Shown: piece by piece, positions 1 to 31,901 of the stretch | Numbering within the stretch: position 1 is the first letter of the stretch | How the letters are laid out: every line of letters starts with the position of its first letter | Source of the DNA: Parabacteroides sp. An277 | GTDB taxonomy: Bacteria; Bacteroidota; Bacteroidia; Bacteroidales; Tannerellaceae | Reading direction: 5' to 3' | NCBI RefSeq assembly: GCF_002159645.1 | Contig: NZ_NFJB01000033.1 | Span: forward strand, 1-34,361 | Length of the DNA: 34,361 nt | Notes under the pieces: model-generated | Databases searched by the model: none | The model's input: the letters and a program-made list of their open reading frames with translations, nothing else | What the model was told of the DNA's origin: nothing | Program-made: the position numbers and the translations under genes

Positions 1-352
1 ACGTCTCTTTTAAAAAAGCCCCGAACTCCTTGGAGTAACGGGTGCCCTTGGCCACGATGTCAAGGTCTATTGGAATGCTGAAACTCTTGCCCGTGCGGGT
101 ATCCGTCCAGCGCCTGCGACGTACCTTCAAAATTACTTTATGGTCGCGTATCGGGAAGTCCGTCACGCTTACCGCTTCCATAAAGCCTTTGGACTCAAAG
201 TGCACGTCCTCGCTTAGTTCCGGATTCATCTTCTCGTCCAGACTAATATGTATCTCCGTTGAAGTCTGGGATATCCCAACTATGGAGAAGTAATCCAATA
301 TCTGTGTAGGCAGTACTATACTGGCCAACATGTTCAAATAATCGTTTTCCAT
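1..352 (-). CDS. ISAon1-family transposase N-terminal region protein (partial)
   Basis: The reverse strand is open from ATG at 352-350 to the window edge (117 codons, no stop seen). The product begins MENDYLNMLASIVL and contains the block DFPIRDHKVILKVRRRRW followed by KGTRYSKEFGAFFKR. I recognise this pattern from the small first ORF of ISAon1-type elements, where a DDE catalytic ORF follows. That second ORF would lie to the left of the window. The role, inferred from the family, is DNA binding and assembly for transposition. No Shine-Dalgarno is visible. Recognition is from memory of the family; a profile search would settle it. Confidence 0.7.
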   Translation of the reverse strand, partial: MENDYLNMLASIVLPTQILDYFSIVGISQTSTEIHISLDEKMNPELSEDVHFESKGFMEAVSVTDFPIRDHKVILKVRRRRWTDTRTGKSFSIPIDLDIVAKGTRYSKEFGAFLKET

Positions 353-412
353 GTCGCAAAGTAAAAGAATTAATCTTTAATCTGAAATATCCCCACTAAA
401 AATCTACTGACC
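1..412 (-). mobile_element. ISAon1-type insertion sequence, partial (runs off the left edge)
   Basis: The left edge holds the 5' end of an insertion sequence read leftwards. Support is the ISAon1-type N-terminal transposase ORF that starts at 352. The outer end should lie between that start codon and the truncated plus-strand gene that becomes open after the TGA at 408-410. The interval around 390-414 (CCCCACTAAAAATCTACTGA then CCCC) is a plausible terminal repeat. The exact tip and the target duplication cannot be fixed because the other end is outside the window. Confidence 0.6.
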
Positions 413-668
413 CCAATTCACTCCTGCCGGACAGGATTTCTTCTTTTCTGCCACGATGCAAGGACGCAGCCTTGAAAGTCTGGTAAGCGATATGGAAGAG
501 TATTACGAGGGTTTTGACGCTGATTCGGAAGCCTATCTATGGCTGGACGGTAACGGACACGGCAAAAATGGCGCACCTTACCGAATGAAGGATGTACTGG
601 CCGACATGGAAGCGGCGGAGGGTATGGTCTGTAAGCTGCTTGAAGCGGTCAGGGGGCTGGCAGATTGA
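411..668 (+). pseudogene. 3' fragment of a phage/mobile-element small acidic protein, cut by the IS
   Basis: The frame is open from just after a TGA at 408-410 to the TGA at 666-668. The first available ATG is at 456, but residues before it look meaningful: PQFTPAGQDFFFSATM precedes EEYYEGFDADSEAYLWLDG. The order TPAGxDF, an acidic FDxD segment, then a GxPYRMKDVLADMEA tail resembles a family of small acidic proteins in phages and Bacteroides mobile elements. Those proteins have more sequence before TPAG. The fragment abuts the inferred IS end, so the simplest reading is that the IS removed the N-terminus. It could instead be a short functional protein from 456 (70 aa). Function unknown. Confidence 0.5.
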
Positions 669-730
669 CCACGAATACAAACATGGCCTGCTATATCTCT
701 ATTGGTGTGGCAGGCTATGAAATTTTCATC

Positions 731-964
731 CTATCTCCGTTTGCGCCCTTTCTTCGGGAGGCCGGCAGTCTTGTAGGCAATCAGGTCATCACCACGGAAT
801 TGTATTCTCTGGTTGTCCTGCATCCGGAAGAACGGCAACGGCCTTTCCGTATGGGTAATGTAATCATAGATGGTACACCGGTGTATGCCGAGGAAACGCG
901 CCGCATCGCTTACCGAATACGACTGTTCCGGCTTTATCTCTGAAAAATGTTTGCATATATCCAT
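731..964 (-). CDS. Small helix-turn-helix (excisionase-like) DNA-binding protein
   Basis: A 77-aa protein (79 if a GTG at 970 is used; I prefer ATG at 964). Residues about 17-45 read YSVSDAARFLGIHRCTIYDYI, a typical HTH_17/MerR-like winged helix of the Xis type, and the C-terminus is basic (KKGRKRR). Such proteins bind DNA to promote excision or control transfer genes in Bacteroides integrative elements. It stands alone, with about 500 bp of repeat-bearing DNA upstream between it and the RloAB operon, which could contain its binding sites. The family assignment is by motif; the exact role is inferred. Confidence 0.7.
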   Translation of the reverse strand: MDICKHFSEIKPEQSYSVSDAARFLGIHRCTIYDYITHTERPLPFFRMQDNQRIQFRGDDLIAYKTAGLPKKGRKRR

Positions 965-1153
965 ATCCACTTTGTTTTGGCATTAAAGATACAATGCCGA
1001 AAATCAAAATGAAACAGGTTAAACATGGGAATACCACGTAGTTTGTAGGATTTTCAGGGAATATGTGTCCGTCTGTTCAGAAAGGTAATCATCTTTACAT
1101 GAAATGGCAACGGGACAAAAATCTAAAAAACAGATAGGCATATATATTTCAGC

Positions 1154-1406
1154 GTTGACAAGGTTGACAAGAAAGCCAATGTACAAACTTGATTATACAG
1201 CTTATCAGAAATGCTTATTATTCAATACTTTATCTTTTTTCTTATAGAAATAAGAATAAATATAGATACGTGTGTTTTTGTCAACCATTGGCTACAAAAT
1301 TCATAGGATTTTCAAAAGCGTCAACGCTTGTCAACGTTTGTCAACGCATCGTTTTTGATGCAAGTAACTGATACGATGCAACTTGTATCTTGTCAACAAC
1401 GTCAAT
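1154..1406. repeat. Cluster of GTCAAC / GTTGAC motifs (iteron-like)
   Basis: GTTGACA occurs at 1154-1160 and 1163-1169. The inverse TGTCAAC or CGTCAAC occurs at 1279-1285, 1319-1325, 1329-1335, 1339-1345 and 1391-1397, with a near copy CGTCAAT at 1400-1406. The three copies at 1319-1345 are spaced exactly 10 bp apart, one helical turn, as expected for cooperative protein binding. The arrangement resembles iterons or multi-site operators. Confidence 0.6.
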
Positions 1407-1450
1407 CCTGAAATGTGTGCAGATTATATTTTGAAATATGCCATAAAATA

Positions 1451-1473
1451 AAGGCCATCCATAGGATGACCTT
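1451..1473 (-). terminator. Rho-independent-like terminator of the rloA-rloB operon
   Basis: Read on the minus strand, AAGGTCATCC-TAT-GGATGGCCTT forms a 10-bp stem (one G:U type pair) followed by TATTTTAT. It lies 12 bp beyond the stop of the RloB gene. Confidence 0.65.
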
Positions 1474-1484
1474 AACGAGCATAA

Positions 1485-2117
1485 TCAGATAAACTTGTTC
1501 AATTCTTCCACCAACAGATGTACGGTAGTGGAAGATTCTTCCATAGCCGGATTGCCATGTGATATTTCGGCAAGGACAGTAGCAGCATTCTTAATGGCCT
1601 GCGGTTGCAGGTGGAGCAATCGGTTATACATAATAGCCCCGAATCCTTCCGTCTTGGAATAGGGTATTCCTGAAAGCCTTGACAGCATGTCGGCATAACT
1701 GTTCCTGTGCAACGCCCCTTTGTAGAGATTGAAGTGCAGCAGGAACCAATATTCAAACGCCTGGTTGCTATAGGCCACCTTGAAACCGTTTTTTTCGGCC
1801 AGTGTAATGGCTTCATTGAAGTCCTTTGCAGGAAAATCGTCCTTGTCGAACACTACCCAGCACTGGTCATAAGTCCGCTTCTTCTTTTGGTCGGCGTCAC
1901 GGATACTAATGGCCTTGCTCACAAGACTGGTCGTGTTCATTGCCTGGCCTACCGCCTTTACCGTGGCGGCGGTCATTCTGAAGGCCTTGAAATAATCCGG
2001 TTCCGTGCGGACACCTTCACATACGATGAGAAACGACTGCTTTACTTCTCTCGTGCTTTGGCGGCGTGTCAATGAAGCGGAACGATGGTCTTTCTTTTTT
2101 GTCTTTCCCATGGTCAT
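1485..2117 (-). CDS. rloB: RloB-like TOPRIM-type protein (AbiLii-like), second gene of a putative phage-defence pair
   Basis: A 210-aa protein of the RloB family. After a basic N-terminus, residues 29-43 carry FLIVCEGVRTEPDYF, with E34 in the position of the TOPRIM glutamate. Residues 86-94 carry CWVVFDKDD, with D91 and D93 as the DxD pair. A conserved NQAFEYWFLLHF block follows. This arrangement fits a metal-dependent nuclease-like fold. The ATG at 2117 overlaps the TGA of the upstream ATPase gene as ATGA, showing translational coupling. RloB/AbiLii proteins act with an SMC/ABC-like ATPase in abortive-infection-type modules such as lactococcal AbiL. The family is clear; the defence role here is inferred from the pairing and from the mobile-element context. 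Target unknown. Confidence 0.85.
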   Translation of the reverse strand: MTMGKTKKKDHRSASLTRRQSTREVKQSFLIVCEGVRTEPDYFKAFRMTAATVKAVGQAMNTTSLVSKAISIRDADQKKKRTYDQCWVVFDKDDFPAKDFNEAITLAEKNGFKVAYSNQAFEYWFLLHFNLYKGALHRNSYADMLSRLSGIPYSKTEGFGAIMYNRLLHLQPQAIKNAATVLAEISHGNPAMEESSTTVHLLVEELNKFI

Positions 2118-3328
2118 CCCTCCGCCGTAAATATTGTTTCCATATCACCTATAATGGGCGTGGCACCGAACTTACCTTGCAGGTAATCCCGCTCGAAAGG
2201 TGAACTGCCACGCACTTTATACTCGGCCAGCGAATAGGCTTCTGTCGCGCCGAAACTATCCTTTTGAGTGAACCATACCTGGTCTCTGCGGAACAGACCT
2301 GCACTGAGCAGGAACGTGTCATGAGTGGTAAACAGCAGTTGCGCTCCTTTGGGATTTGTCTCCGCCGAGTTGAAAAGCGTGATAATCTTGCGCACAAGCA
2401 ACGGATGGAGTTTGGAGTCAAGCTCATCCACCACCAGACGTTTGCCATTGTCCAGCGCATCTATGATAGGATATGCCAAGGAGAAATATTTGATGGTTCC
2501 CTCGGATTCGTTTCCGTTAAACGAAAAGGCTACATTATGGGTCGCTTTTCCTTCATCATCGTACTGACGATGGCTGCTTACGATGCGGTTGTCAATCTTG
2601 GCTATGTTGTCTATGCCCAAATCCGCATATTTGGCGAAACGAACTATACGCTCACGCATCTTTTCATCGTCCAGATGCCTGATGGCTTGCGACCACATTT
2701 TCTCGTCCTCGCTACAGAACAGGACTTGTGTGTCGCCAAGCCAATGCAGGATATTGACGGCGGTCGTTTCGTTGAACTGGGCGGCAGTGGAGAGAAGAAG
2801 CGCGTTGCCGCGAACCATTTTCTTGTTGACCAAATCCTGTATCAACGGGCTTTTAGCATGAACGGTGGTTGTTTCCCCTTCGCGGTAGAATATCTCTACC
2901 TCTTTGGCACGTTTCCTGTTCATACGGCGGTAAAGCCATTCGGCATGTATAGCTTTGGGGTCTACCTCAAAGCCGTAACGGTAGATGTATTCACCGACGG
3001 CGAAGGTGGCCTCCATCGTGGTCGGCTCATGGGCGGTGGAAATGTTCAGGCGGAAGTTCTCCACGTCTATGCTTTCGCCAGCCTGGCTGTTCTTGAACGA
3101 ATCCATGATGAAACGCTTGTAAAAAGCGATGGCCTTCAATACATTCGTTTTTCCTGAAGCGTTCGCCCCGTAAATCACCGCACTGCGCACGAGTGACAAT
3201 CCCATGTCGGAAAGCGGAATGACATCATTAGGTTCCGAAAGGGATTCCTTTAGGGTAGTGGCCACGAAGGATAGTTTAAGTTCATCCTTTATGGACAGGA
3301 AATTGCTGGCACAAAATTCGAGAATCAT
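2114..3328 (-). CDS. rloA: RloA-like AAA/ABC-type ATPase (AbiLi-like)
   Basis: A 404-aa AAA_15/AAA_21-type ATPase. The start MILEFCASNFLSIKDE at 3328 is typical of the family and sits 32 bp below a TATATTTG promoter element; a longer in-frame start at 3409 lies upstream of that promoter and is rejected. Walker A is GANASGKT (residues 54-61), Walker B is KRLVVDELD with a following HP, and a TTHD H-loop follows. The overall layout is that of OLD/RloA ATPases with a long helical insertion between the Walker motifs. It shares ATGA with rloB. By analogy with AbiL and PARIS systems, the ATPase would sense infection and control the TOPRIM partner; this is inference. Confidence 0.88.
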   Translation of the reverse strand: MILEFCASNFLSIKDELKLSFVATTLKESLSEPNDVIPLSDMGLSLVRSAVIYGANASGKTNVLKAIAFYKRFIMDSFKNSQAGESIDVENFRLNISTAHEPTTMEATFAVGEYIYRYGFEVDPKAIHAEWLYRRMNRKRAKEVEIFYREGETTTVHAKSPLIQDLVNKKMVRGNALLLSTAAQFNETTAVNILHWLGDTQVLFCSEDEKMWSQAIRHLDDEKMRERIVRFAKYADLGIDNIAKIDNRIVSSHRQYDDEGKATHNVAFSFNGNESEGTIKYFSLAYPIIDALDNGKRLVVDELDSKLHPLLVRKIITLFNSAETNPKGAQLLFTTHDTFLLSAGLFRRDQVWFTQKDSFGATEAYSLAEYKVRGSSPFERDYLQGKFGATPIIGDMETIFTAEG

Positions 3329-3359
3329 ATATTTAACCTTGTTATTTGCTGATTTTTTG

Positions 3360-3367
3360 CAAATATA
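3360..3367 (-). promoter_or_regulatory. -7 element of the rloA-rloB promoter
   Basis: The minus strand reads TATATTTG, matching the Bacteroidetes TAnnTTTG -7 box, 32 bp before the chosen rloA ATG. A clear -33 TTTG is not evident at the right distance. Confidence 0.5.
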
Positions 3368-3436
3368 CAAGTTTTCTTCCGTATTTGGTAAAGATAGCTG
3401 GATTTTCATATCTACTAAATTGATTTATTTCCTTAG

Positions 3437-3723
3437 TTTGAACTATTCAGCATTGGGCCAACCGGGTATTTTGCAGTAAAACAGCCTGATCTTATAATAG
3501 TAAAACTTGTCTTACATATTAGAGGACAAAAGCATGTCACGAAAGAAATAACTGAACGTCAGATGATTGCGTTAGGTTTAATCCGTGAGAATAAAGGCCT
3601 AACCATATCTGAAATGTCCCTAAAGACAAATGTGGCATTACAACTTTTCAAGAATTAGGCATCATATCAAGGGAAGGCGGTCGCAAAGACGGCTCATGGA
3701 TTATAAAGCAAGATGAGGAATAA
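3437..3723 (+). pseudogene. Decayed 3' end of an HTH protein (possibly AlbA_2-type ATP-binding regulator)
   Basis: On the plus strand the frame after the TAG at 3434-3436 reads through HVTKEITERQMIALGLIRENKGLTI (from 3533) and hits TAG at 3656-3658. The shifted frame from about 3637 continues TTFQELGIISREGGRKDGSWIIK and ends at TAA 3721-3723. Joined, these make a typical C-terminal winged helix (ITERQ... recognition helix ...LGIISREGGRKDG-W). Such tails are found on AlbA_2-type ATP-binding putative regulators. A small deletion with frameshift between the two halves and the missing N-terminus mark it as a remnant. No intact reading is possible. Confidence 0.6.
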
Positions 3724-3737
3724 TGAACTGTTTCATT

Positions 3738-6700
3738 TCATGAGACCTCATTTGCTAAATCCATTTCATCTTGAACCATTTCCGTTTCAAGGTCAAGCCC
3801 AAACATATCCTTCAACTGTAAGTAGTCGAAACACAACGCTTTCGGACGATTGGCCTTGACTTTCTTGACCTGTTCGCCGCCTGACATCTCTATCGTGTAA
3901 TCCGGCAAGCCGTTTGGCAACAGTATCGTGAACCTGTCCTGCTTCAGCCCAAGGAATGACGGGTGCGATTTGAGGTAGGACATGATGGTTGACCAGTTGG
4001 AGCGGTTGACCGTGGCATTTTGGTTACGGCTATTGAACAGGGAGGCCACAGCTGCCATATTCAAGTAAAGAATGGGACGTGCTTCCATGAACTCGATTTC
4101 TTCCTTGGCAGCCAACGGACGGAAGCTCTTCAGGTAACGGATGCGGTAATGCGCCTTCTCCACGCACTTGCCCATCGTCTGGAAACCTTGCAACATGTTC
4201 CAGAAGTCGGCGACCTCAGAACTTTCCTGGGCAAGCTCGTTCTGGACGCGCATTCCCTTGACGGCAGTATCGAACAGGTCGGTATAGCTGAAAGGCATAT
4301 CCAGCACGGTTTCCAACGTGCGGAACGTGGCCAAAGGAATCACCCAGTTGCCGAAAATTCGGTCATGTATCGTCTCATCTTCCATCTTGGTGGCCAGTTC
4401 CCGTTTTACAATGGAATAGGTGTCCGAAAAGTTCTTCTCGAACAACTCCCGATGATTCAGTATCTCTATGGTCAGGTGTGTCAGTCCCAAGTTGCACAGG
4501 GCTACCAAATCCTCATAGCGGCTTTTCTCCTTTTGGCTGAACGAGGTCTTGGAAAAGGCGAGAAACAGGACACGGGTGTAGAGTGCCATATCCTGCGTGG
4601 GCTTGTCTTGTCCGCAAAGCACCACACCTGTACTGACAATGGTCTGTGTTGCCATGCCGTCCGTACCCGTGTTCTTCTTTGTCTGGCCACCGCCTCCCCA
4701 AAGCCCTTTCAGATAGGCTATCTTACGGATATCAAGGTCGTTCTTGTATTCGTCAAGCACTACGAGCGTATTGACTGCCTGTGAAACACGGTCGTTCATA
4801 GCCGGTACGGAAGTGACACCGAGATTGGGAGGGTCAACGCCGTGCAGGAAAAAAGCCTGCAATGAAGTGGCAAGCGTGGTCTTTCCAGTTCCCTTCTCAC
4901 CGAAGAGGTTTAGAATAGGGAAATGCCTTGTGCGGCGGAAGATTACGTCCCGGAACAGGGTGGACAGCAGATAACAGAAAGCAACGGTAGCGTTCTCGCC
5001 GAATACTTCCATCAGTTGTTTCACATAGTTGTATAGCTTTATGCCGTTACGGTTCTCGTGTATCATCAGACGTTCAAACTGGAAAATCTCCGGGTTATGA
5101 ATGTAGATTTTGGACATGGCAGGAATATAGTACGCCTTTCCGCTGACACCACGGACAATGCCGAGGTCATCCACAGCTTGAAATTTTCCATCAGCAAGAA
5201 GTCCGTTACCAAAGGCGAAAAAGCCTTCTGCGGCGTTCCATCCTAATTTGCGCACACGTTCCGCCGTGTCGGTCTTGGAGTACAGATACTCCTTGACACG
5301 GTTGAGCTTGTCTATCTTGGCCAGCCACACATAGTTGCCCACGGAGCCGACCTTTTGCTGAAAGTTATTTAGCGAACACAATTCGGACTCCCTCAGTTCA
5401 ATGACACGGCATATATTATAGGTGTTGCGCATACGGAAGATGCGTGTGCCGTTGTTCTCGTCCTCGATGTGAAACAGCGGTTCCATGATGAAGTTGGAAA
5501 TCCTTGACGGCTCCTCATCGTCATCCCCGGTGGCGTAATAACAGTTCTCCCTGATGAACAGCCCATGCTGGCGAAGCAGTTCCGCTTCACGCTGTCTCTC
5601 GTCCATTGGCGTAAGTTTGTCCTGCCTTTTCCGCGCCTCTCCACGGGCTTGCGTTACGGCATCACGCCACAATTTGGCTTTCCCGTAGATTCTGGCCAAT
5701 TCATCAATGCACTGATTGAATATCAGTTGGTCTTTCACATAGCGCATCAGGTCTGCAATCTCTGACACGCATTTCCGTTCTTCCACCAAAGAGTCCGCGA
5801 CAAGAAAGCGTTTCTGTGCCAGCCAGACAATAAACAGCCTTTCTTTCAGTGAAGTGTAATCCTCCCGGCAATGAATGAAATTGTCTGCATCGTTCTTTCC
5901 GGGTTTCACATCCCAGCCGTTTTTACCGACGGGGATTTCGGCAAACGGCAGTTCCCTTACGGTTACATGGAAACCTTTCCTGACAGCGGCTGTCCCGTTT
6001 GCCATGACTGCCTCGAATCCCGGTCCGAAGGGTTTGCCTTCACTGACATCGGAATCAGGGATGAAGCATAATGAAGTGGTGTACTTTTTCAGTTGCTCAA
6101 ACTGGCTGTCCGTCCATGCTGTACCCAATGCGGCCACGGTATTGTCGTAGCCGACGGACTGCATACGCAACACGTCAGGCGCCCCCTCCACGATGATAAA
6201 GTATTCCGCACTGCGTTCCCGGCTCGCCCGGTCTATACCGAACAGGCATTCCCCCTTGGCATACACCGCGCTGTTTGGTGAATTGATGTATTTCGGTGCT
6301 TTCGGATTGTTTCCGATGTAACGGGCGGTATAAGCGATGATGCGTCCCCACCTGTTGCGTATGGGAATCATTATCCTGTGTCTGAACATGGCATAGACAC
6401 GACCGTCATCTCCGCGCCGGAGCAGACCCAGCTCGAAAAGTACATCCTCGTCCAGTCCTTTTGTCCGGCAGAACTCCATGAACGCACCTCCGTCACGCGG
6501 CGCGTACCCGATACCAGCAACCGAACAGAACTCTTCCGGCCATCTTCCATAAGCATATTCACGGGCAAGGCGGCTTTCATCACTGTCAGGCATCAGCAGG
6601 CTGCCTACAAAGAAGTCCTGTACATGGCCGAGTATGGCAAGAAGCGTTTCCTTGTGCTGAATCTTTGCGACTTGCTCCTTGTCCTGTCCTTCCACATACT

Positions 6701-6980
6701 CAATGGGAATATTGTGCCGTCTGGCCAGGAACTCGATGGCTTCCATGAAGGAAAGGTTCTCTTTCTCCATGATGAATGTGATGGCATCGCCGCCACGGTT
6801 ACAGCTGAAACAGTGGAACAGGTTCTTTCCCGGACTGACAGAGAAAGAACCTGTCCGCTCCTCATGGAACGGACAAATGCCCATCAGGGTCGAGCCTTTC
6901 CTTGACAGCCTGACATACGGCTCCAATACATCCCCTATAGCAAGCTCCCTGACTTTGTTGATTGTTGACTCGCTTATCAT
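3738..6980 (-). CDS. Large primase-helicase-like protein of an integrative element (CHC2 zinc finger, TOPRIM, P-loop ATPase)
   Basis: A 1080-aa multidomain replication protein. The zinc finger is C36-H39-C57-C60 within CPFHEERTGSFSV and HCFSCNRGGDAI. The TOPRIM core follows, with FIIVEGAPDVL near residue 265 and the DxD in IPDSDV near 312. A coiled middle part leads to a P-loop ATPase with LFGEKGTGKTT near residue 697 and a Walker B-like VVLDEYKND. The start at 6980 is chosen because its ATG overlaps the upstream TGA (ATGA); an ATG at 7001 is also in frame. This layout is common for primases of Bacteroides mobilizable elements, where it would prime complementary-strand synthesis after transfer. 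It is last in an operon with three small genes. Substrate and partner relaxase are not visible. Confidence 0.85.
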   Translation of the reverse strand: MISESTINKVRELAIGDVLEPYVRLSRKGSTLMGICPFHEERTGSFSVSPGKNLFHCFSCNRGGDAITFIMEKENLSFMEAIEFLARRHNIPIEYVEGQDKEQVAKIQHKETLLAILGHVQDFFVGSLLMPDSDESRLAREYAYGRWPEEFCSVAGIGYAPRDGGAFMEFCRTKGLDEDVLFELGLLRRGDDGRVYAMFRHRIMIPIRNRWGRIIAYTARYIGNNPKAPKYINSPNSAVYAKGECLFGIDRASRERSAEYFIIVEGAPDVLRMQSVGYDNTVAALGTAWTDSQFEQLKKYTTSLCFIPDSDVSEGKPFGPGFEAVMANGTAAVRKGFHVTVRELPFAEIPVGKNGWDVKPGKNDADNFIHCREDYTSLKERLFIVWLAQKRFLVADSLVEERKCVSEIADLMRYVKDQLIFNQCIDELARIYGKAKLWRDAVTQARGEARKRQDKLTPMDERQREAELLRQHGLFIRENCYYATGDDDEEPSRISNFIMEPLFHIEDENNGTRIFRMRNTYNICRVIELRESELCSLNNFQQKVGSVGNYVWLAKIDKLNRVKEYLYSKTDTAERVRKLGWNAAEGFFAFGNGLLADGKFQAVDDLGIVRGVSGKAYYIPAMSKIYIHNPEIFQFERLMIHENRNGIKLYNYVKQLMEVFGENATVAFCYLLSTLFRDVIFRRTRHFPILNLFGEKGTGKTTLATSLQAFFLHGVDPPNLGVTSVPAMNDRVSQAVNTLVVLDEYKNDLDIRKIAYLKGLWGGGGQTKKNTGTDGMATQTIVSTGVVLCGQDKPTQDMALYTRVLFLAFSKTSFSQKEKSRYEDLVALCNLGLTHLTIEILNHRELFEKNFSDTYSIVKRELATKMEDETIHDRIFGNWVIPLATFRTLETVLDMPFSYTDLFDTAVKGMRVQNELAQESSEVADFWNMLQGFQTMGKCVEKAHYRIRYLKSFRPLAAKEEIEFMEARPILYLNMAAVASLFNSRNQNATVNRSNWSTIMSYLKSHPSFLGLKQDRFTILLPNGLPDYTIEMSGGEQVKKVKANRPKALCFDYLQLKDMFGLDLETEMVQDEMDLANEVS

Positions 6981-7222
6981 AAGGTGGTCAGGATTTTCCA
7001 ACAGTCAATTATGGACTGGCCGGAGTATTTTGGACGGCTGGCATTATCGGGATTAAGCGGCTTGATATAGCCGCTTTCCTTATATTTTCTAAGCGTCTTG
7101 TAACTGACACCCAGTTCCGCACAAGTACGCTTGACCGAATAAACCCCTTCCGGGTCGCATGTTGGCACTAATTCTCTCATCCGCTGTAATGTTTTATCGT
7201 ATGCCTGCTTCGTATGTCTCAT
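6977..7222 (-). CDS. MerR-like helix-turn-helix protein
   Basis: An 81-aa protein with one recognisable domain, residues about 27-55: VYSVKRTCAELGVSYKTLRKYKESGYI, a MerR/excisionase winged helix. The C-terminal PKYSGQSIIDCW matches the usual 'wing plus final helix' of this type. Its TGA overlaps the primase ATG by ATGA, so the two are translationally coupled. Small HTH proteins before the primase are standard in NBU-like elements, where they act in excision or control of transfer; the specific role here is inferred. Confidence 0.75.
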   Translation of the reverse strand: MRHTKQAYDKTLQRMRELVPTCDPEGVYSVKRTCAELGVSYKTLRKYKESGYIKPLNPDNASRPKYSGQSIIDCWKILTTL

Positions 7223-7257
7223 GAATTACAGCACCGGCATATCCTTATATTGTTTCC

Positions 7258-7572
7258 TTATTTCTTTATATCTAAACTATTTCTGTTTATATCAGAAGAA
7301 GTGTTATCGAAATAGTCCTGGACCGTGCGTTGCAGGAGGCGGAGGTCTGTCGTCCTGTATTCCACTTTGCCTGGTCTCTTATAACATACCACTTTCCCTT
7401 GCCGTCTCCATCTTTCGACATTCCGGCGACCGAACATCTCATAAGCCTTCCTTTGACTAATAAATTCCGGATCGGCATTGTCGGATTTCAGGTACTTGAC
7501 AATCCTTGCCGCAAGGTCATTCAGGAATGTGTCATAAGGAATTAGGCGGTCTAAAAACTGGAGGAACTGCAT
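7258..7572 (-). CDS. Small DNA-binding protein of integrative element (excisionase-like)
   Basis: A 104-aa protein. The N-terminal half is amphipathic (LQFLDRLIPYDTFLNDLAAR). The second half carries FISQRKAYEMFGRRNVERW, a helix-turn-helix-like block followed by RPGKVEYRT, which looks like a wing. It lies 35 bp upstream of the MerR-like gene and 11 bp below the next small gene, so it belongs to the same operon as the primase. I recognise the general type from Bacteroides mobilizable elements but cannot name a family with certainty. Confidence 0.7.
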   Translation of the reverse strand: MQFLQFLDRLIPYDTFLNDLAARIVKYLKSDNADPEFISQRKAYEMFGRRNVERWRRQGKVVCYKRPGKVEYRTTDLRLLQRTVQDYFDNTSSDINRNSLDIKK

Positions 7573-7583
7573 AGCCTCAGGAT

Positions 7584-7775
7584 TTACAAGGTACGCATTA
7601 CGGTGATGGTCTGTCTCTCCCTGTCCGTCCGCGTCTTAAACTGACGGTTGTAGATGGCACCAAGTTCTGAGGCCTGGGTCCGGACGCTTTTCAGCCTGGA
7701 GATGTGGAAGGTGATTTCATCGCCAACTTCGAGTGCGACAAGCGCGGGACGGATTTTTTCCATGTTTTCTGCCAT
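7584..7775 (-). CDS. Small conserved element protein, first gene of primase operon
   Basis: A 63-aa protein with the core LVALEVGDEITFHISRLKSVRTQASELG and a basic end RTDRERQTITVMRTL. The shape (beta strand, short helix, beta strands) fits a small DNA-binding or regulatory protein. Very similar short ORFs head the early operon of Bacteroides mobile elements, but I know no assigned function. It is transcribed divergently from the XRE regulator, with 145 bp between the start codons. Confidence 0.65.
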   Translation of the reverse strand: MAENMEKIRPALVALEVGDEITFHISRLKSVRTQASELGAIYNRQFKTRTDRERQTITVMRTL

Positions 7776-7779
7776 AATA

Positions 7780-7831
7780 TTTGTTTGTTTAATGATTAAT
7801 GTTTAACTTTGTAGTCACAAATTCAATTTGT
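7780..7831 (+). promoter_or_regulatory. Promoter of the XRE regulator with an overlapping palindromic operator
   Basis: TTTG at 7780-7783, a 20-bp spacer and TAACTTTG at 7804-7811 match the Bacteroidetes promoter. A perfect inverted repeat ACAAATT-C-AATTTGT (7817-7831) covers the expected transcription start. This is the natural place for an operator bound by the encoded XRE protein, giving autoregulation and possibly control of the divergent primase operon. The leader to the ATG at 7921 is about 100 nt. Confidence 0.6.
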
Positions 7832-7920
7832 ATCATCGGCAAAATAACACAAAAAGGTTTATATAGCCAAATATTTGTTTGATAATTGTTGATTTAATAT
7901 TGCAATTTAAGGTTTGACCC

Positions 7921-8385
7921 ATGAATATAGATATAAAAGACGTACATGTGGGACAGGCTATTGACCAACGCCGCAACGAACTCGGCCTTTCTAAGTCCGA
8001 ACTTGGACGCAGGCTTGGCATCCCCCAACAGCATATAAACCGCCTTCTGGAAAGGGAGACGATGGAGACCAAGCGGCTTGTCAAGGCTTGCAAGGCGTTG
8101 GACTTTAATTTTTTCGCCTTGTTCTGCCCGGTCAACCCCCAGATATCCGCATACCTCGCGGCAGTGGCATTGGACGGGGGAGATGCCAATAACAACATTG
8201 GCGATAGCGGACTTGCAGCCCAGCTTACCGCCGAACAGACCAAGGTGGAAAACTTGAACGGCACTATCAAGCTACTGAAGGAGCAGATAGATAGCCTGAA
8301 TGCACAAATTATCCGTCTGGATTCCAATCTGAAGGACAAAGACGCAATTATAGAACTACTAAAAGAAAGGAGGCAAAATATGTAA
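7921..8385 (+). CDS. XRE-family transcriptional regulator with C-terminal coiled coil
   Basis: A 154-aa protein. Residues about 10-60 form an HTH_3 domain: VGQAIDQRRNELGLSKSEL, then GRRLGIPQQHINRLLE as turn and recognition helix. The last 60 residues are a heptad-rich coiled coil (LTAEQTKVENLNGTIKLLKEQIDSLNAQI) that should drive dimerisation. Divergent from the primase operon, it is likely the element's master switch. The palindrome at 7817-7831 is the probable operator. Family clear, targets inferred. Confidence 0.85.
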   Translation: MNIDIKDVHVGQAIDQRRNELGLSKSELGRRLGIPQQHINRLLERETMETKRLVKACKALDFNFFALFCPVNPQISAYLAAVALDGGDANNNIGDSGLAAQLTAEQTKVENLNGTIKLLKEQIDSLNAQIIRLDSNLKDKDAIIELLKERRQNM

Positions 8386-31691: not shown

Positions 31692-31763
31692 GGTTCCTTG
31701 GATGAGTGGCTTAGTCAGCGGTCTGCAAAACCGCGTACGGCGGTTCGAATCCGCCAGGGACCT
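31692..31763 (+). tRNA. tRNA-Cys (GCA), first copy
   Basis: A 72-nt cloverleaf. Acceptor GGTTCCT pairs with AGGGACC (one G:U), anticodon GCA at 31725-31727 in the loop CTGCAAA, T-arm GGCGGTTCGAATCCGCC. The discriminator is T, as expected for bacterial tRNA-Cys. CCA is not encoded. Confidence 0.97.
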
Positions 31764-31779
31764 CTTAAAAATAAAGCCT

Positions 31780-31851
31780 GGTACCTTGGATGAGTGGCTT
31801 AGTCAGCGGTCTGCAAAACCGTGTACGGCGGTTCGAATCCGCCAGGTACCT
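31780..31851 (+). tRNA. tRNA-Cys (GCA), second copy
   Basis: Nearly identical to the first copy, with a 16-nt spacer between them. Acceptor GGTACCT pairs perfectly with AGGTACC; anticodon GCA in CTGCAAA; T discriminator; no encoded CCA. The one stem pair that is G:U in copy one is Watson-Crick here, and the anticodon-stem/variable junction differs by one base (CCGC versus CCGT). Confidence 0.97.
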
Positions 31852-31901
31852 CCATAAATTTCTTTCATCATTTTAATATTTAATATTGATTAAACTTGAA
31901 G

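Follow-up and report, generated by a model that had tools for sequence, protein, structure and literature searches.

Positions 1-34,361 of contig NZ_NFJB01000033.1 of Parabacteroides sp. An277, a stretch to which we refer in its entirety as the window, carry on the minus strand two overlapping genes, rloA and rloB, which on their profile matches we assign with very high confidence to the abortive-infection system AbiL. The pair is another AbiL of established type, borne as cargo of a mobile element, and both its identity and its setting had been correctly given by an earlier, sequence-only reading of this DNA. The genes and the signals surrounding them are as follows:

3370..3399, minus strand: imperfect dyad beside the -7 box, a putative operator (symmetry across loci)
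3360..3367, minus strand: TATATTTG, -7 box, 39 nt before the rloA start (position of TAnnTTTG conserved)
2114..3328, minus strand: rloA (AbiLi-like), ABC-type ATPase of 404 amino acids (open reading frame, profile matches)
2114..2117, minus strand: ATGA, a 4-base overlap of the rloA stop and rloB start, presumably coupling their translation
1485..2117, minus strand: rloB (AbiLii-like), predicted TOPRIM-type nuclease of 210 amino acids with E34, D91 and D93 (open reading frame, profile matches)
1451..1473, minus strand: terminator-like hairpin after rloB (scan; folding z-score)

Both reading frames are intact. A longer rloA reading from position 3409 is possible; since the conserved promoter box falls inside it, however, rloA probably starts at the ATG at 3328. 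RloA matches the PADLOC AbiLi model at 4.9e-96 and Pfam AAA_21 at 5.6e-36, while PADLOC AriA (4.4e-34) and many further, weaker defence ATPase models all score far below AbiLi. RloB matches Pfam RloB (PF13707) at 2e-45 over positions 1-195 of 195, and AbiLii at 1.2e-30 over profile positions 8-88 of 170; at an E limit of 1, AbiLii was the sole PADLOC family that it matched. The profile search proposed in the sequence-only reading (PF13707 together with AbiLi and AbiLii) was thus positive for every model, the two open reading frames (ORFs) lie where it had placed its AbiL-like module, and the ATGA by which it had the genes fused is indeed present. As in AbiL, an AbiLi-type ATPase gene is found directly upstream of an AbiLii-type gene, and the RloB domain carries the Toprim acidic residues.

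In an alignment of 54 sequences, window included, residues G54, N56, S58, G59 and K60 of the RloA Walker A motif (GANASGKT) and D301 of Walker B are invariant, and E302 is conserved in at least 90%. In RloB, E34 and D91 are invariant and D93 is conserved in at least 90% of 59 aligned sequences, again with the window included, so that a P-loop ATPase with both Walker motifs and a TOPRIM-type partner with E34 and D91/D93 were rightly described. The H-loop that had also been claimed fared less well: H336 is present, and is invariant in a 10-sequence alignment, but is not on the 90% list of the 54-sequence alignment. Ratios of amino acid-changing to silent differences (pN/pS) against six relatives, for which silent sites are near saturation, were 0.11-0.17 for RloB and 0.11-0.19 for RloA, and those for the less diverged pair L042/L033 were 0.10 and 0.04, showing that both genes are under purifying selection; together with the profile scores, these ratios exclude chance. 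Structure models of both proteins were of good confidence. That of RloA resembles PtuA and the heads of Rad50 and SMC, with the latter two ranking highest, and OLD Toprim regions were among the structural matches of the RloB model, which may have a Toprim fold. PDB sequence searches yielded no convincing solved relative.

Relatives of RloB were found in 20 of 98 related genomes (own included), representing 14 of 56 genera; in this set, one locus (L028) shows no RloA relative because its contig starts there. In L010, a second RloA relative follows the AbiL pair, at 130-1416 on the minus strand. A scan of named genomes gave at least 570 RloB relatives, the best 80 of which were kept for locus analysis. 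In all 80, an RloA relative is located upstream on the same strand, and in 76 the two genes overlap or are separated by no more than 20 bases; the ORF gap exceeds 150 bases in the other four (L045, L062, L079 and L098), and L045 has a stop codon within the RloB range. Among the matches listed, the closest RloB relatives, at 70-83% identity, come from Palleniella, Phocaeicola, Paraprevotella, Butyricimonas, Prevotella, Bacteroides ndongoniae and further Bacteroidales, and this spread of genera points to transfer across families, as we take them to be delimited. Viral contigs hold the module too, with 53 relatives and a best identity of 61%. One such contig of 85.7 kb (L112) holds an AbiL at 61% identity, and the genes that follow it look phage-like by eye.

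The extent of the transferred unit could be deduced from three sets of alignments. L042 has AbiL without an element-backbone match in the stretch examined, and L033 has it inside the element; they share 91.5% identity over a block that opens 116 nt ahead of the rloA start and closes one base beyond the rloB stop, outside which blastn gave nothing more at 1e-5. L237 and L033, which share 95.9% identity across 5.6 kb of element plus AbiL, diverge 6 bases after the rloB stop, and the window aligns with L035, L036 and L042 from positions 3373-3378 to 1482-1517, i.e. from the promoter to approximately the end of rloB. On the strength of these borders, the exchanged unit consists of the promoter and the two genes, down to the rloB stop. 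The terminator-like hairpin, around which the 66-nt stretch 1425-1490 folds with a z-score of -3.9, lies outside the aligned AbiL block in four of five pairs formed with the window (L034, L035, L036 and L042) and inside it in the fifth, formed with another element copy (L032).

The -7 box, presumably of the Bacteroidota type, is matched by TAnnTTTG at 38-40 nt before the rloA start in all 20 loci picked among the closest relatives, and alignment of 13 close relatives shows conservation from the dyad to the ATG but not further upstream. The promoter call rests on this conservation rather than on the sigma-70 scan, which gave 6 sites in positions 1000-3800 versus 6.1 in shuffles; the terminator scan of the same interval gave 2 versus 3.1, and a TTTG-spacer-TAnnTTTG pattern missed the rloA promoter, which is without that -33 motif. 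The promoter and terminator ascribed to the module in the sequence-only reading are therefore borne out as a conserved box and a terminator-like hairpin, but both fall outside the interval 1485-3328 assigned to it, and the scans stay at shuffle level.

The dyad is centred 17.5 nt before the TAnnTTTG box, which was the best of 100 centres tested. In 19 loci (L237 was dropped as a near-duplicate of L033), 146 of 228 flanking pairs are complementary, a fraction of 0.64 versus a mean of 0.31 (sd 0.08) for the centres tested. When left and right arms of different loci were paired, 1 of 5000 permutations reached 146 and the mean was 124, a modest excess because the arms are T-rich and A-rich. A repressor site would be the simplest reading of this symmetry, and the cassette includes no regulator gene. 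The operator reading is weakened when loci are taken one by one: no more than 2 of 100 shuffles equal the dyad in only five of 20 loci (L035, L036, L037, L038 and L051), that of the window is weak (7 of 12 pairs, with 30 of 100 shuffles as good), and it is nearly absent in L043 (4 of 12) and L113 (2 of 12).

The mobile element was compared in 20 copies with primases at least 64% identical (the window, L032, L033, L034, L198 and L230-L244). In the window, its genes, including two of the helix-turn-helix (HTH) type named by coordinate, are:

7921..8385, plus strand: HTH_3 regulator (HTH_7921), right end of the element (Pfam HTH_3 1.5e-6; 18 of 20 element loci)
7584..7775, minus strand: backbone ORF of 63 amino acids (relative in 18 of 20)
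7258..7572, minus strand: backbone ORF of 104 amino acids (relative in 19 of 20)
6977..7222, minus strand: small HTH backbone protein, HTH_6977 (relative in 20 of 20; weak MerR/HTH matches)
3738..7001, minus strand: primase-helicase with a DnaG-type N-terminus (Zn_ribbon_DnaG 2.6e-30, DNAG_N 1.6e-25); the cargo slot begins at its 3' end, as seen from swap borders
731..970, minus strand: HTH_17 (excisionase-like) gene, far side of the slot (Pfam HTH_17 3.1e-7; 14 of 20)

The pair is thus flanked by the HTH_17 gene and the primase, in agreement with its predicted location between an HTH gene and a primase operon. In L032, L033 and L034, HTH_7921, the two small ORFs, HTH_6977 and the primase recur, with AbiL directly after the primase, and the same backbone (HTH, two small ORFs, HTH, primase, HTH) is present in other genera with mostly different neighbours. 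Genes beyond HTH_7921 differ in most of the 11 copies compared, as expected for insertion at different places. L233 and L240 have the same two neighbours there, and their primases are quite different (79% and 65% identical to that of the window), which suggests a preferred insertion site. Integrase relatives adjoin HTH_7921 in L032, L231, L232 and, as two ORFs, L034, while L235 and L242 have only short pieces; both integrases scanned (L032 and L232) contain Phage_int_SAM_5. No relative of the two tested integrases was found on the window contig, and since this contig breaks off on the left, at position 1, only part of the element is visible. Backbones recurring with other neighbours, phage-type integrases in some copies, and cargo that differs between similar backbones support the earlier placement of the module as cargo in a mobile element.

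Across the order, the full primase as query retrieved mostly shorter DnaG-like matches, and its C-terminal 648 amino acids were used afterwards. Of 123 genomes in the own family, three contain this part (counting the own genome, and with the third match at only 32% identity); in the family to which Phocaeicola faecicola belongs, 37 of 399 genomes match at 1e-100, many at 33-40% only. A primase pattern scan of viral contigs found nothing, window positions 1-8000 had no near match in plasmids, and a PF13589 family search in the own genome was uninformative.

The slot after the primase is readable in 17 of the 20 copies, as L236, L243 and L244 end at the primase, and all 17 are occupied, by eight types of cargo:

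AbiL: five copies (window, L032, L033, L034, L237)
Divergent AbiL: L231
Divergent AbiL and Septu: L232
AbiD/Abi_2: three copies (L198, L241, L242)
IetA/IetS: L233
PDC-M31A/B, a candidate system: three copies (L234, L235, L238)
Schlafen/AlbA_2 protein: two copies (L239, L240)
AbiEi_2 and PP2C: L230

PADLOC defence systems could be assigned in 14 of the 17 slots, six of them scanned (window, L198, L231, L232, L233 and L234) and eight by similarity (AbiL copies 75-84% identical, L237 via L033; AbiD and PDC-M31 copies 92-96% in DNA). The three slots without an assignment are L230, whose cargo matched no PADLOC model, L239, which gave only WYL (2e-8) and mad1 (3.9e-5), both at its C-terminal helix-turn-helix, and L240, with cargo like that of L239 (92% in DNA). 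The share of AbiL is not an unbiased frequency, since it was AbiL that initially led to L032, L033 and L034, even though the primase search recovers their genomes as well. As a control, none of eight genes downstream of four prophage-like primases (L245, L246, L248 and L249; 36-38% identical), hand-picked and not always the first downstream, matched PADLOC at 1e-4. PADLOC matches are not confined to cargo, because a gene beside the slot in L233 matches a WYL model at 5.9e-20. Overall, the site after the primase is a defence hotspot.

Comparison of similar backbones reveals where cargo is replaced. In L232 and L233, the final 600 bases up to the primase stop are 89% identical; unrelated cargo follows, and identity returns, at 95%, about 4.98 kb beyond the stop. 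L233 and L234 diverge 58-67 bases ahead of the end of the primase stop, and their similarity resumes at 4.6 and 2.1 kb. For L232 and L238, divergence sets in 49-61 bases ahead of that point and similarity resumes at 5.0 and 2.5 kb; for L240 and L241, 78% identical before and 93% after, the corresponding values are 6-12 bases and 6.1 and 1.1 kb. These points of divergence and rejoining show that cargo exchange takes place at the primase 3' end, sometimes with the last primase codons. It is conceivable, though less likely than not, that this end is a dedicated swap site at which self-contained defence cassettes, each bringing a promoter, are loaded interchangeably, and that the AbiL dyad is an operator used by RloA/RloB or a host regulator to repress the module's own transcription, in which case phage sensing would also raise AbiL expression. 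Judging by titles and the beginnings of abstracts, chiefly of open-licence papers, no paper about this element was found. The slot is a place to look for new defence systems of gut bacteria, given the L230 and L239 cargo types without a PADLOC system match.

In L033, AbiL is followed by a kinase and an AIPR/AbiU-like gene. In L232-L235 and L238, a WYL/WCX-domain regulator (the domain was scanned in L233 only) borders the slot between cargo and HTH_17. Next come a SLOG (YpsA) gene and a counterpart of the 189-amino-acid ORF of L198, which we take to resemble a phosphoribosyltransferase.

We consider it probable that the module is an anti-phage AbiL, a self-contained cassette in the defence slot of a Bacteroidales element, with an RloB nuclease gated by RloA. 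The profile matches, the pairing in all of the best 80 loci, the invariant E34, D91, K60 and D301, and purifying selection argue for this explanation, as do the models, the other defence systems in the same slot, and published relatives, from which the anti-phage activity is extrapolated. The cassette, with promoter, probable operator, rloA and rloB, would have been acquired as a unit into the slot. RloA would keep RloB inactive within a complex until altered by a phage product, whereupon RloB, as a two-metal TOPRIM nuclease (E34, D91, D93), would be released or activated and would cut nucleic acid, stopping both phage and cell in an abortive infection; RNA is a likelier target than DNA, perhaps tRNA as with AriB of PARIS. 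In that system, an AriA hexamer holds AriB, and a phage protein frees it to cut tRNA-Lys (PMC12409363). By analogy, a sensor-effector pair of this kind is the most likely mechanism, at about an even chance. AbiL of Lactococcus lactis is reported to act by abortive infection through a TOPRIM_OLD effector (PMC10440598). AbiLii of F. nucleatum is reported to be toxic in E. coli, that of L. lactis is not, and AbiLi failed to neutralise the F. nucleatum toxicity (PMC3985639). The parts of the AbiL literature that were accessible give neither a trigger nor a molecular target.

The same family could defend in another way, with RloA detecting DNA structures or a damaged repair complex in the manner of Rad50 or Gabija and RloB cutting DNA. 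We regard this as rather improbable, though it would accord with the top-ranked Rad50 and SMC heads and with the DNA cleavage reported for the Toprim enzymes of OLD and GajA (PMC10568477). Two overlapping genes carried on a mobile element would also suit a toxin-antitoxin module that stabilises the element, with phage defence secondary, and AAA plus TOPRIM_OLD pairs are indeed described as AAA-neutralised toxin pairs (PMC10440598). Such an addiction role is unlikely, as unrelated systems (AbiD, IetAS, Septu) fill the same slot, and 17 of the 20 named relatives L032-L051 (L035-L051) have AbiL with no element-backbone match in the stretches examined, some of which are short. Finally, the lack of a relative of the tested integrases on the window contig, and a shortened backbone gene at 456-668 on the plus strand, beside an apparent insertion sequence (IS) and corresponding to a 124-amino-acid ORF in L231, might suggest a decayed or silent remnant. 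With intact frames, retained catalytic residues, pN/pS well below 1 and a conserved promoter box, this is very improbable.

Among known systems, AbiL of L. lactis has the same order of ATPase and RloB-family genes, and both of its PADLOC models match; it is plasmid-borne, whereas the window pair belongs to a Bacteroidales branch with a Bacteroidota-type promoter, is mobile-element cargo on a contig with chromosomal genes, and is known here from sequence alone. PARIS likewise has separate genes for an AAA_21 ATPase and a Toprim effector, and its AriA model matches RloA; however, RloB matches no PADLOC AriB model (E up to 1) and so lacks the AriB-type effector character, and AbiLi far exceeds AriA for RloA. 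OLD and Gabija GajA also combine an ABC ATPase with a Toprim nuclease, but OLD classes 1-3 have them in a single polypeptide and the window in two, and no UvrD-like (GajB-type) helicase was detected among the scanned neighbours (primase and HTH genes). In Septu, the PtuA ATPase, with a fold like that modelled for RloA, is partnered by an HNH nuclease instead of RloB. The hotspots of P2-like phages and P4-like satellites, as outlined in PMC9122126, are similar in that anti-phage modules replace one another at one fixed position in a mobile element, but they involve a different backbone and another host order, whereas the slot described here is bordered by the primase gene 3' end. Restriction-linked rlo genes lie within a type I restriction-modification operon; no R, M or S subunit of such an operon was found among seven proteins scanned in 731-8385 (pair included), a scan bounded by the contig end at 1.

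AbiL is an old, little understood abortive-infection system, and the Bacteroidales cassette, with clear-cut borders and a promoter of its own, lends itself to cloning and testing. The module itself is ordinary; of wider interest are its sharp borders, its possible operator and the primase-adjacent slot in which cargo is swapped.

A phage satellite was considered and rejected as a backbone feature: a gene with a terminase match was seen in L198 alone of the 20 element loci, several of which end too soon to tell. As this 692-amino-acid gene (5.3e-9) occurs only there and adjoins a shortened HTH_17 match, both the gene and its integrase are probably part of another insertion. The primase matches of L236 and L237 (G459:C55 and G495:C152) contain 3 and 1 internal stop codons, respectively, and these copies may be partly decayed. 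On the HTH_17 side of L250, L252 and L255, genes further out resemble restriction-modification genes by eye. The window begins inside an ORF at 2-352 on the minus strand (MENDYLNMLASIV...), which has no Pfam match and which we presume to resemble the N-terminus of an IS transposase. Near the other end of the window, two tandem tRNA-Cys genes are located at 31692-31764 and 31780-31854.
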